A program made the position numbers and the translations under genes. From positions 1 through 64,000 of the forward strand of contig NZ_MRCE01000011.1 in the NCBI RefSeq assembly GCF_001904725.1: a DNA stretch of 64,000 bases, in the 5' to 3' direction. A model generated the notes under the pieces. The model saw nothing but the letters and a program-made list of their open reading frames with translations, did no database searches and was not told where the DNA came from. This DNA comes from Phormidium ambiguum IAM M-71. Lineage in GTDB: Bacteria; Cyanobacteriota; Cyanobacteriia; Cyanobacteriales; Aerosakkonemataceae. Below are positions 4,257 through 35,302 of the stretch, piece after piece (the stretch's first letter is position 1; each line of letters begins with the position of its first letter).

Positions 4257-6815
4257 ATGCGTTTATCTCCAGTTTTGGTAGCAGCTGTTGCTTGGGTAAC
4301 ATTGAGTAACTCAAATCCAGCTTCCGGGCAAACAACGGAAAACAAATCTGCAACAGCAATCAAACATCTAAATGAATTAGAACTTGCAGCGCATTCACCT
4401 AGCGCCGAAAGTCAAAGTACTGAATCTCGATCGATCGAGAATGCCGATATAATTAATACTCTTACTCACGTTACTTCCGAACCTGCACAAAAATCAGAAG
4501 CACTAGTTTCGCAGGTAAAAAAATTAAATCAGGAAATTACTATTTCCGCCCTAACAATTTTGCCATCGGAGGTGGAAAAAACTGCTCAGAAGCCAATCAA
4601 ACAGGAACTACAGGCACACATTAATGTGTCCGAAAATCACATTCCCACGTTTGAACTTCTAGCCCATTACTCGCCTAAAGATACCCAATTACAGCAGAGT
4701 GCATTTTATTCCTTAAATCATATTTCCGAATTTTCGCCAAATCTTAATCCGGTAATTACAGCACAAGCAACACCCCCAACTGACGCACCAGCACCAACAA
4801 CACCAGAACCTACAGAACCCCCAGCAACAGAATCAGGTAAACCCCCTGCTGAAGGTCAAACCCCCAATCAACCAACAGAACCAGAAAAACCACCTGCGGA
4901 AAACCAAACCCCCAGTCAAATAGATACTCCTCCCAGTGGACAACCTAGCACTAATCCCTTACCAACACTGGAACAGAATGCGCCCCCTTCAATACCCACT
5001 CAACCTAAGCCCCCTGCTCAACCTGTGCCTTCTTCAGAAGGAGAACCTCGCGTATTAGTAGCAGAAGTGTTGGTAAGTGGTGTTGACGGAAAACTGCAAG
5101 AAATTGTTTATGATGCAGTTCGCACCCGTCCAGGGAGAACAACTACTAAATCACAATTACAAGAAGACATTAACGCCGTTTTTGCTACTGGTTATTTTTC
5201 CAGAGTTAGAGCCGAACCCACTGATACACCTTTGGGCGTGAGGGTAACATTTGTTGTAGAACCCAACCCTGTTCTACGTTCAGTGCAAATAGAAGGCAGC
5301 CAAGTAATACCAAAAGACTTAATAGACAGCACATTCCGGGAACAATACAACGAAATTCTCAATTTCCGTGATTTACAAGCTGGTATCAGACAACTAGAAC
5401 AGTGGTACAAAGACAGGGGATATGTTTTAGCACAAGTAGTAGATACCAAAGTTTCCCCAGAAGGTACTGTAACCCTGGAAGTTGCAGAAGGGGTAGTTGA
5501 AGATATTCAAGTACAGTTCTTGAATCGGGAAGGAGAAACTGTTGATGCTGAAGGAAAGCCAATTAGGGGAAGAACTCAGCAATATGTAATTACCCGCGAA
5601 ATGGCAACTAAGCCAGGTACAGTGTTTAACCGAAATGAAATTCAACGGGATTTACAGCGGGTATTTGGTTTGGGCTTATTCGATGATGTCAAATTATCGT
5701 TAAATCCTGGTCAAGACCCCCGACGAGTAAATGTACAAGTGAATGTTCGGGAGAGAAATAGTGGTTCTATTGCGGCTGGGGCAGGTTTCAGTTCGGCGGC
5801 AGGTTTATTTGGTACAGCAAGTTATCAACAGCAGAATTTGTTTGGCAGAAACCAAAAAATTGGTGCAGAGGTGCAGTTAGGTCAAAGGGAATTTCTCTTT
5901 GATTTGCGTTTTACTGACCCTTGGATTGCGGGCGACCCCTATCGAACATCTTACACAGTTAACTTGTTTAGAAGGCGATCGATCTCCCTAATTTTTGACG
6001 GTGGCGACCCAGAAATTAGATTACCAAACGGCGACAGACCCAGAATCCTCCGACTCGGTGGCGGTGTCACCTTTACCCGTCCTCTATCTCGTAATCCCTT
6101 AGAAGCTTCTGATTGGGTAGCTTCTTTAGGATTGCAATATCAAAATGTCTCCATTCGTGACTCCGATGGCGACCTCAGACCCAGAGACGAACTTGGAAAC
6201 GACCTCAGCTTTAGTGGCTCAGGAAAAGATGACTTAGTAACCGTACAACTTGGTGCAGTCCGCGATAAACGCAACAACCCCACGCGCACCACCCAAGGTT
6301 CCATCTTCCGCATCGGTCTAGAACAATCCGTACCCCTTGGTCAAGGTAGCATCCTGATGACCAGATTGCGCGGAAGTTACAGCTACTACATTCCCGTTAA
6401 ATTAACCAACTTTACCCCAGGCCCACAAGCACTCGCTTTCAACATCCAAGGTGGAACGGTTTTAGGTGATTTACCCCCCTACGAAGCCTTCTCCTTAGGC
6501 GGCGTTAACTCTGTTCGCGGTTACGATGAAGGTGAACTGGGTAGCGGTCGCAGTTACATTCAAGCTACCGCTGAGTATCGCTTCCCAATCTTCTCAGTTA
6601 TTGGCGGCGCGGTATTTGTCGATTTTGGTACAGACTTGGGAACTGCCGGAGATGTCCCTGGGAGACCCGCTGAAATCCGTAATAAACCCGGAACTGGCTT
6701 CGGCTACGGTCTCGGCGTTCGCATTCAATCACCTCTAGGTCCGATTCGGATTGATTATGGCTTCAATGATGAAGGTGATGGCCGAATTCATTTCGGTATC
6801 GGTGAAAGGTTCTAA
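4257..6815 (+). CDS. bamA: Outer-membrane assembly factor BamA/Omp85
   Basis: Inserts beta-barrel proteins into the outer membrane. I prefer the ATG at 4257 (852 aa) because it begins a signal-peptide-like stretch ([17 protein letters not shown]); an in-frame GTG at 4230 would add nine residues. In 852-aa numbering there is a low-complexity region with a Pro/Thr/Glu-rich linker (about 170-261), then three POTRA domains (about 263-338, 339-414, 415-500) and the C-terminal barrel (about 505-852). The barrel has the VRGY motif of loop 6 at 753-756 and a terminal Phe. Three POTRAs is the cyanobacterial/plastid arrangement. It lies directly upstream of the lipid A genes, which fits a shared outer-membrane role. 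Confidence 0.95.
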
Positions 6816-6830
6816 AGAAAGGGATTGGGA

Positions 6831-6906
6831 AGGTAAAAGGCAGAAGGCAGAAGGCAGAAGGCAAAAATTCCCCCTTTCCCTTTTTCCCCTTTTCCCTTTT
6901 TCCCCA
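6831..6906. repeat. Composite GGCAGAAGG / TTTCCCC repeat
   Basis: Purine arm of AAGGCAGAAGG units, linker aaaattcccc, then a CCCTTTTTCCCC arm, between the bamA stop and the lpxC start. It is translatable without a stop in the lpxC frame, which makes a falsely long lpxC ORF possible. Confidence 0.85.
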
Positions 6907-6927
6907 TCATCAATAATCATTAGACAA

Positions 6928-7812
6928 ATGACACAAACTCTGACAAATTGTTTTGAACTTTCTGGTGTTGGTCTTCATAACGGCACCATTACCAAAGTGC
7001 GGGTTTTACCAGCATTACCTGGTCAAGGTCGCTATTTTGTCAGGATTGATTTGCCGGAACAACCAACTATTCCAGCCAAGTTAGAAGCAGTAACCCAAAC
7101 TCTGCTTTCTACTCAACTAGGAGAAAATAATGGCGGAGTTCGCACTGTAGAACACCTTTTAGCCGCTTTAACGGCAATGGGTGTTCGTGATGCCAGAATC
7201 GAAATTGATGGCTCTGAAGTACCGCTTTTGGATGGCTCAGCGCGAGTTTGGGTAGAGGCGATTTTACAAGCAGGACTGGTAGAAGAGGGGAGCAGGGGAG
7301 CAGGGGAGCAGGGGGGCAGGGGGGCAGAAAGTTACAATTCCCCCAATCCCCAATCCGCAGTTCCCAGTCCCTTATCCGTGTATCAGGGTGATGCTTTTGT
7401 TTGTGCTATGCCTGCGCCGGAACTGCGGTTTACTTATGGAATAGATTTCGATCTTCCAGCGATCGGCAATCAATGGTACAGTTGGTGTCCAAGTCAAGAA
7501 AGTTTTGCAGATGCGATCGCACCTGCACGCACTTTTGGTCTAGCTCATCAAGTCGAAGAGTTACGGGCTAAAGGTTTAATTAAAGGTGGAACTTTGGAAA
7601 ATGCTTTGGTTTGCGATCGTTCTGGTTGGCTCAATCCACCTTTGCGATTTGCAAATGAACCAGTCCGTCATAAAATTTTAGACTTAGTAGGAGATTTGAG
7701 TTTGTTGGGCAATATCCCGATCGCTCATTACTTCGCCTACAAAGCAAGTCACAATTTGCATATCCAACTAGCTAAGTTGTTACAAGCACAAGGATTGGGG
7801 ACTAGGGACTAG
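6928..7812 (+). CDS. lpxC: UDP-3-O-acyl-N-acetylglucosamine deacetylase
   Basis: Zn-dependent committed step of lipid A synthesis. Start ATG at 6928 ([19 protein letters not shown]), which opens like other LpxC; upstream in-frame codons belong to the repeat. The protein is 294 aa. Catalytic and metal residues are recognisable: E75-H76 (TVEHLLAA), H248 and D252 (RHKILD), H275. Oddities: residues about 121-150 (nt 7288-7377) are a Gly/Glu/Ser/Pro low-complexity segment encoded by a genomic repeat inserted in frame between conserved blocks, and the last residues and stop come from a GGGACTA repeat. The catalytic residues are intact, so it is probably functional. It heads lpxC-fabZ-lpxA-lpxB. Confidence 0.93.
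7288..7377. repeat. Intragenic composite repeat inside lpxC
   Basis: GGGAGCAGGGGAGCAG units, linker gaaagttacaattcccc, then CCCCAATCCCCAATCC units. The layout is the same as the intergenic copies but the length is compatible with the reading frame and no stop is present. Confidence 0.85.
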
Positions 7813-34600: not shown

Positions 34601-35302
34601 TTGACACATCTATTAACTATTCAATCTTTAACCCCAGACTTTCTACCAGCAGTAGTCGAACTAGACCAAAAATGTTTTGCTGGTGGACTCTGGACTATAG
34701 ACGGCTACAAACGCGAGCTAGACAGTCCCAATAGTGACATTTTGTTAATTTTAGAAGCGCCAGGGAGCAGAGGGGCAGGGGTGCAGGGGTGCAGGGGTGC
34801 AGAAAGTAAAGATTCCCCTTGTCCCCAGTCCCCAGTTCCCTTGTCCCCTTATCCCCAGTCCCCAATCCCCAGTCCCCAGTCCCCAGTCCCCAATCCCCCA
34901 CTCTTGGCAATGGGCTGTCAGTGGGCTATTTTAGATGAGGCACACATTACAATTGTGGCTGTCTGTCCCAACTACCAACATCAAGGATTAGGTCAGGCGA
35001 TGCTGCTAGCTTTGTTGTCTAGAGCCAGACAACGAGGATTAGAAAGAGCCACCTTAGAAGTAAAAGCGTCCAATCAGCCAGCCATTTCTCTTTACCAAAA
35101 GTTTGGCTTTAAAGTAGCTGGAAGGCGACGTGGATACTATCAAGATACAGGTGAAGATGCTTTGATTCTTTGGCTAAATGGTTTGCAAAAGGCAGAATTT
35201 ACGCAGACATTAGCCGAATGGGAACAGCGAATTTGCTTGCGTCTTGCTGCTTGTGGTTGGGTATTGCAGATGAAAGAAATTGCTAATGACAAGGAAAAAT
35301 AA
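34601..35302 (+). CDS. rimI: GNAT acetyltransferase RimI with repeat-encoded insertion
   Basis: Predicted N-terminal acetyltransferase of ribosomal protein S18. 233 aa, start TTG at 34601. The acetyl-CoA site is VAVCPNYQHQGLGQAML; the C-terminal core has ASNQPAISLYQKFGF and RRGYYQDTGEDALIL. Residues about 54-100 are a Gly/Arg then Pro/Ser/Gln-rich segment encoded by a composite repeat, lying in the loop between the second and third strands. Typical RimI is about 150 aa, so this protein is enlarged by the insert and by a C-terminal extension. It precedes clpC, as in many cyanobacteria. Confidence 0.88.
   Translation: MTHLLTIQSLTPDFLPAVVELDQKCFAGGLWTIDGYKRELDSPNSDILLILEAPGSRGAGVQGCRGAESKDSPCPQSPVPLSPYPQSPIPSPQSPVPNPPLLAMGCQWAILDEAHITIVAVCPNYQHQGLGQAMLLALLSRARQRGLERATLEVKASNQPAISLYQKFGFKVAGRRRGYYQDTGEDALILWLNGLQKAEFTQTLAEWEQRICLRLAACGWVLQMKEIANDKEK
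34758..34900. repeat. Intragenic composite repeat inside rimI
   Basis: GGGGCAGGGGTGCAG units, linker gaaagtaaagattcccc, then CCCCAGT heptamers (cccagtccccagtccccaatcc). No stop in the rimI frame. It is close in layout and sequence to the insert in lpxC. Confidence 0.9.

Follow-up and report, generated by a model that had tools for sequence, protein, structure and literature searches.

How does a dispersed repeat come to be read as part of RimI, the ribosomal protein S18-alanine N-acetyltransferase, and is the encoded peptide used by the enzyme or tolerated by it? The gene lies in a window (the whole stretch of 64,000 nucleotides that was analyzed, G000:C11:1-64000) of a genome of 7.41 Mb in 90 contigs, which is compared here with the sister genome of a genus mate, G001. 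An earlier note on the window had described a 47-residue Gly/Arg then Pro/Ser/Gln segment at about residues 54–100 of RimI, had counted it as one of two in-frame copies within the 64 kb, and had suggested that the repeat family is tolerated or spreads in coding regions. Taking all lines of evidence together, we consider it probable that the insert is a dispersed composite repeat, exchanged between arrays and tolerated in the RimI loop. That the repeat is real, dispersed, exchanged and in frame in core enzymes is confirmed by the comparisons described below.

The RimI insert and its repeat

Among open reading frames (ORFs) of at least 80 aa, the site is covered by one alone, that of rimI. Its translation scores 95.9 bits against the NCBIfam rimI equivalog TIGR01575, above the cut-off of 86.4, and presents the conserved columns of the family. 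Residues 54–100 (34760-34900) read PGSRGAGVQGCRGAESKDSPCPQSPVPLSPYPQSPIPSPQSPVPNPP, in agreement with the segment described earlier, and the CCCCAGT heptamers reported for it lie in the pyrimidine arm of a composite, whose purine arm ends with three copies of GGGGTGCAG. In the AlphaFold2 model (model residue = ORF residue minus 5) most of the core has pLDDT above 90, while the insert blocks have pLDDT 53–66. The best PDB match of the model is E. coli RimI (5isv), and the GNAT fold is predicted to be intact. A predicted beta strand borders the insert on either edge, beta2 before and beta3 after; the model thus places the insert as a disordered loop in the beta2-beta3 hairpin of an intact GNAT fold, which is the strand-strand loop that had been proposed. 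As the frame is open, the insert is presumably translated.

Table 1 Positions in the window of the two in-frame composites, their host genes and the parts of the RimI insert
Feature	Position	Strand	Basis or detail
lpxC ORF, start codon uncertain; LpxC model starts at residue 60	6751..7812	+	ORF, family match
Other in-frame composite of the window, within the LpxC domain	7279..7386	+	sequence, family match
rimI ORF, ribosomal protein S18-alanine N-acetyltransferase	34601..35302	+	233 aa, TTG start
Segment coding for predicted beta2, ORF residues 45-51, directly before the insert	34733..34753	+	AlphaFold2 model
Composite repeat insert, in frame, residues about 53-100, predicted disordered	34758..34900	+	sequence, ORF, AlphaFold2 model
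Purine arm, GGGAGCAG/GGGGCAG/GGGGTGCAG units	34763..34802	+	sequence
AT-rich linker, same in the RimI of the sister species	34803..34814	+	sequence comparison
Pyrimidine arm, CCCCAGT / CCCCAAT / CCCCTTGT units	34815..34899	+	sequence
Segment coding for predicted beta3, ORF residues 101-110, directly after the insert	34901..34930	+	AlphaFold2 model

The repeat is dispersed in both genomes. Two tandem CCCCAGT units (CCCCAGTCCCCAGT) match the 7.41-Mb genome exactly 106 times with overlaps counted, 48 times on the forward and 58 times on the reverse strand, against none for the reversed-pattern control, and the repeat is therefore not a product of chance; the sister genome gives 86 matches, again with none for the control. 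The 148-bp RimI segment, itself counted, is matched at least 42 times in this genome, where 40 of 250 candidates were scored, and at least 46 times in the sister genome, where 40 of 408 were. With two or more tandem heptamers, on both strands and dispersed, the CCCCAGT repeat belongs to the heptamer SSR family. The order of the arms is constant: of the 97 arrays of both genomes, arrays at stretch ends excluded, 36 have a purine arm on the 5' side of the heptamers and none has one on the 3' side, and no purine arm was found in the other 61. Folded as RNA, the window's composite reaches a z of -2.56, with 1 of 200 shuffles as good (one sequence). Folded as single-strand DNA (two sequences), it does no better than shuffles (z -0.09 and 0.45), and a DNA hairpin as driver is unsupported on this count.

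In-frame copies in other genes

The analysis covered 55 arrays on 52 stretches of this genome, drawn from 100 of the 106 CCCCAGTCCCCAGT matches, and an array was counted as in-frame internal if the frame is open for at least 40 codons on each side. Nineteen of the 55 arrays are in frame, spread over 17 long ORFs. The hosts include the housekeeping enzymes CysS, LeuS, PurD, MutS2, CbiD, CobB, BchH and HypF. Comparison of family matches with array positions puts 12 of the 19 inside a domain: DUF3326, the CbiG C-terminal domain, PurD ATP-grasp, LeuS editing, hydantoinase A and hydantoinase B, together with CbiD, BchH, CobB, MutS2, an S66 peptidase and RimI. The MutS2 and S66 peptidase arrays were placed by the first of the two pieces of their family match, which they adjoin, and the RimI array is counted here by structure because the Pfam match begins after the insert. 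Four arrays lie between domains (CysS, the hydantoinase A/B junction, a glycogen debranching enzyme and HypF), and the three others, less certain, are flanked by an accepted domain on just one side (ShlB-like, HlyD-like and a GHL10 protein). Nine hosts score above curated NCBIfam cut-offs with the insert within the matched span (CysS, PurD, LeuS, MutS2, CbiD, HypF, BchH, CobB and LpxC); the hydantoinase ORF passed no NCBIfam cut-off. This ORF (L170:1809-5696, 1295 aa) has three in-frame arrays, two of them with the same linker. Four of the 17 host ORFs (L159, L187, L197 and L200: CbiG with a methylase domain, CbiD, BchH and CobB) are of tetrapyrrole or cobalamin metabolism, a share that seems, as an impression, above expectation.

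The other in-frame copy of the window counted earlier is the one in lpxC. It stands outside the 55 arrays because it lacks two consecutive CCCCAGT units. The lpxC frame has a further low-complexity stretch at about 6817-6920, ahead of the LpxC domain, which probably lies in the spacer before the true start.

In the sister genome, whose arrays were drawn from 86 listed matches, 7 of 56 arrays are in frame, or 7 of 42 once the 14 at a stretch end are set aside; 14 more within about 250 nt of contig tips were left out. One of the seven (L278) lies in a 101-aa frame that is unconvincing as a gene. Arrays occupy the same place in both species in CysS, PurD and RimI. Among the 55 arrays of this genome and those of the sister we found no gene split by an array. 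Five candidates for a split gene (one here, four in the sister) have long frames on both sides in differing frames; by eye, each pair looks like two distinct neighbors, and all five were rejected.

How far these counts depart from chance can be judged against a neutral model, in which landing is random, one third of the insertions keep the frame and the frame-breakers vanish. ORFs of 100 aa or more take up 85% of the bases of the window, and 64% of its positions are inside such an ORF by 120 nt or more. Arithmetic from the window (0.212 against 0.365) gives an expectation of about 37% in-frame internal copies among surviving arrays. The observed share is 35% (19/55) in this genome and 17% (7/42) in the sister, below the neutral share. 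In-frame copies of this genome are thus about as frequent as expected if insertion is random and frame-breakers are lost; compared with the neutral share, the removal of in-frame copies seems weak here and stronger in the sister. A positive excess, as would arise from selection for in-frame copies, is not evident in 19 of 55 against about 37%. The proposal that the family is tolerated in coding regions is well supported by these counts of in-frame arrays and by the failure to find a split gene. The proposal that it spreads in them is supported as regards the exchange between arrays (see below) and not as regards a selective excess of in-frame copies, which neither genome presents. The units themselves help: CCCCAGT, CCCCAAT, GGGGTGCAG, GGGGAGCA, GGGGCAG, AGGGGCAG and CCCCTTGT are free of stop codons in all six frames, which leaves length modulo three as the main filter.

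The arrays are not indifferent to strand. In 17 of the 19 in-frame arrays here and in 6 of 7 in the sister, 23 of 26 together, the coding strand is the C-rich one. Other arrays, within 100 nt of a gene 3' end, are 29 C-sense and 34 G-sense (Fisher p 0.0003 against 23:3), where an array between two near genes is counted once per gene. With shared genes taken once and all flank positions included, the contrast is 20:3 against 52:44 (p 0.004); in this genome alone it is weak, 17:2 in frame against 34:17 in its own flanks (p 0.07). The C-sense in 23 of 26 argues that some orientation-dependent process or selection also acts. Read in sense, CCCCAGT encodes Pro/Gln/Ser/Val, and in antisense Thr/Gly/Asp/Trp/Leu; the encoded peptide is a plausible reason for the bias. 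Avoidance of G-quadruplexes in mRNA was considered as its sole cause and is untenable, because the composites carry a G-rich purine arm on the same coding strand.

Exchange between arrays and the filling of the RimI loop

Sequence is shared between arrays in unrelated places. The array in the sister's RimI has CCCAGTCGATGGCGGTCCC, which is absent from RimI of this genome. Eleven copies of CCCAGTCGATGGCGGTCCC exist in the sister (RimI included) and one here, with flanks that are unrelated by eye. Two of these copies are in frame, in the sister's RimI and in a WD40-repeat-like protein (named by eye), in different reading frames. Its presence in one RimI and absence from the other argue for a movement of sequence between arrays, including those in coding regions. 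The in-frame array of CbiD and an array in a spacer have a linker of about 28 nt in common, and two arrays of one hydantoinase gene share one of about 24 nt. The two sister RimIs differ by aligned gaps of 24, 14 and 4 nt, with a net of 6 (alignment-dependent); if the alignment is right, single steps that break the frame would have been balanced between them.

Uninserted genes offer a view of where arrays may begin. CbiD of the family relatives G003 and G005 is without insert, and the DNA at its site is GAGGGAGCAGGCGAACAG, close to a purine-arm unit. By eye, GGGAGCAG is present in uninserted CbiD and CCCCAATC in uninserted RimI loops, and uninserted RimI of G003-G005 reads CCCCAATCTTGGG where this genome has CCCCAATCCCCCACTCTTGG. 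A target duplication, which together with terminal inverted repeats would mark a MITE, is not apparent at the one uninserted site read for it, that of CbiD. These two cases, read by eye, suggest that arrays grow or copy at a chance unit, without apparent target duplication.

In 114 distinct cyanobacterial RimIs aligned to a short-loop reference, the beta2-beta3 loop is the only internal site with inserts of more than 1 aa. Across cyanobacteria its length varies between 12 and 106 aa. Of the 114, 72 have 5 or more extra residues and 36 have 15 or more (the longest addition is 94), and of 102 distinct loops 59 have 20 aa or fewer and 28 more than 30; these fractions are a biased rate, because about half of 20 added loci were picked for a late-starting match, that is, for a long loop. 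The survey omits L046, which lacks the anchor, and 15 of 60 RimIs that failed the anchor pattern in one round; the 114-RimI alignment, with looser patterns, skips L046, L401, L410 and L429. In the six readable family relatives the loop has 25 aa (G003-G005), 37 aa (G002) and 17 aa (G007 and G009), and no heptamer arrays were found in any of the six; the loop is cut by a contig end in G006, and G008 gave no match. The loop of the sister species does carry heptamer arrays.

Elsewhere the same loop is filled by other repeats. In Leptolyngbyaceae C42_A2020_001 (L097) it has AGAAGTC/AAAATTC/CCCATCA, a repeat that, itself counted, is matched at least 47 times in that genome, where 40 of 137 candidates were scored. 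In Symploca SIO1C2 (L101) it has AATTCCC, with 55 matches in its own genome, and in Symploca SIO2E6 (L106) GCAGGAG and CGCGTCCCC, with 57, several of which span most of query bases 1-149 at 82–92% identity. Four distinct repeats, each dispersed in its own genome, thus occupy the RimI loop. The two Symploca inserts have the purine arm in common and differ in the remainder; the clade of L099, L101 and L106 (support 98, quick tree) has the purine start GAAGGCAGGA in common and differs in the rest. By inspection only, further units are CCCCCCATC-like (L418), CCAACTACC (L419), TTCCGAC (L406), CACTCCT (L078) and CTGCTCCCC (L054). L406 and L419, close RimIs of one family, present TTCCGAC and CCAACTACC in the same loop, which suggests recent turnover of its repeats. 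Units of these other families (AAAATTC, AGAAGTC, CCCATCA, CCAATTACCAACTA and CACTCCT) have stops on one strand only, and in RimI loops they run in the stop-free direction. Any count of independent origins on the quick tree is descriptive, as seven of the eight repeat groups have one row. Repeat DNA seems to have been turned again and again into floppy loops without visibly breaking genes.

Could the loop peptide have been recruited, as a disordered segment that tunes ribosome binding or solubility, with its length selected and its sequence free? Lengthening in many lineages (the 72 and 36 of 114 above) speaks for recruitment, as do lengthening by sequence that is not visibly repetitive (for example L093, L100 and L420) and the persistence of frame and low-complexity character in both members of the genus. 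The 59 of 102 loops with 20 aa or fewer argue, however, that a long loop is not needed; composition varies by lineage (GRRQ..., HPPHPP..., NYQLPTT..., PQSPVP...), and many unrelated ORFs of this genome contain arrays, at close to the share expected under neutrality. We regard recruitment as unlikely, and the insert peptide as most likely without a function of its own and tolerated. Site-preferential insertion would explain the recurrence by targeting and not by tolerance, with the DNA or transcript of the RimI loop as the target of one machinery that moves composites. It would fit the order of purine part, middle and pyrimidine part common to L101, L106, L097 and L418 in this loop, the strictness of that order in CCCCAGT composites (36 to 0 of 97 arrays) and the RNA hairpin of the window's composite (z -2.56). 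Yet the same arrays lie in 16 other ORFs of this genome, no target duplication is apparent at the one uninserted site read, and a tolerant loop predicts the same pattern, which makes targeting quite improbable. An artefact, by which mis-assembly or a pseudogene leaves RimI non-functional, is hardly credible: repeats do break assemblies, as the 14 of 56 sister arrays at a stretch end and the 14 near contig tips attest, and the sister's CbiD stops at its array, but both genomes' RimIs have the same linker and an open frame, the family columns are conserved and the predicted structure matches E. coli RimI. The frequent breaks of the sister assembly at arrays imply that draft assemblies undercount in-frame copies.

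The preferred account, a composite exchanged between arrays and tolerated in the loop, would proceed as follows. Arrays would start or land at existing short purine-rich or CCCCAAT-like stretches, would lengthen and shorten by slippage, and would have their sequence replaced when they recombine with other arrays. Within a gene, a copy would survive if its net length is a multiple of three and the loop tolerates a disordered peptide; other copies in genes would be lost. The RimI loop would be such a tolerant site, filled repeatedly in cyanobacteria by different repeats. A broader proposal, possible and still rather doubtful in our judgment, is that purine-linker-pyrimidine composites are one mobile-repeat class of filamentous cyanobacteria, which would move as units, swap arms via shared arm or linker anchors and continually feed disordered peptides into receptive protein loops, the beta2-beta3 loop of RimI being the clearest. 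If this is true, protein loops evolve by exchange of spacer repeats.

These results suggest that, outside obligate intracellular bacteria, core enzymes can gain protein sequence from dispersed repeats at nearly the rate to be expected were in-frame copies harmless. The RimI loop provides a natural series, one loop with several repeat families in many lineages, for testing whether new protein segments arise from selfish repeats, a question of long standing. Annotators should be warned that where proteins of these cyanobacteria contain peptides such as PQSPVPSPQSP or GRGAGEQGG, a dispersed repeat encodes them and they are not domains.

Relation to known repeat systems

Among the matches listed in a literature search that took in few subscription papers, none was evidently concerned with heptamer composites lying in frame in enzymes of cyanobacteria, or with the RimI loop. 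The SDR elements of Nostoc punctiforme, of 21–27 nt, were reportedly found by Elhai and colleagues in 2008 to be often embedded within heptamer arrays. Here heptamer arrays contain or adjoin a CGATGGCGG variant and the GTAGGACAGGC palindrome, a likeness in description. The GGGGA(C/T)T heptamers of Nostoc are said to be related to the STRR that Mazel and colleagues described in 1990.

In a survey, these heptamers form 89 arrays in Nostoc sp. PCC 7120, 68% of them intergenic (Rehm et al. 2015, PMC4692102), which leaves about a third touching genes. The G-rich heptamer strand is reported there to form G-quadruplexes in vitro, by CD (PMC4692102). The heptamer is the same as that of our repeat (CCCCAGT complements ACTGGGG), and it too is on both strands and dispersed (PMC4692102). 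The main text of the survey is without the words 'in-frame' or 'amino acid' (PMC4692102). By contrast with it, the intragenic copies described here are in frame, mostly internal to conserved enzymes, orientation-biased and partly joined by a purine arm.

A survey with cyanobacteria among its species reports GTAG REPs within the ORFs of several of the species (PMC3733652); its authors suppose that genes inactivated by REPs were removed. As described there, these are short stem-loops with an end tag, and heptamer arrays are not (PMC3733652). By eye, the GTAG tag is not found in 34758-34900, which sets the RimI insert apart from them. A separate dispersed palindrome of this genome, GTAG + GACAGGCATCTTGCCTGTC, resembles GTAG REPs: of its 19 exact copies (L353-L371), several adjoin heptamer arrays or lie within them. 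In-frame copies occur in an RsmG-like protein (L356, by eye), in CobB (L365/L366, the same place), in the L354 protein and in the sister's CysS (L283, a sister locus), with encoded peptides such as RTGILPVI and VGQASCLSS.

A parallel in coding sequence is that of the Rickettsia palindromic elements (RPE) and other protein-coding palindromes. In-frame repeats are reported in unrelated housekeeping genes of Rickettsia and other genomes, typically in unstructured segments (PMC10969869, PMC2996958). The CCCCAGT arrays are alike in being in frame inside unrelated genes (19 arrays in 17 ORFs). An RPE, as described there, is an element of about 150 bp with a conserved encoded peptide, whereas the composites here are slippery tandem repeats of variable length, read in a frame that differs by protein. 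Neither a fixed element nor a conserved peptide was found: unit number varies, the sister RimIs differ by their gaps of 24, 14 and 4 nt, and CCCAGTCGATGGCGGTCCC is read in differing frames. The composite works like an RPE but is not one, because it is made of slippery heptamers and not of fixed palindromes.
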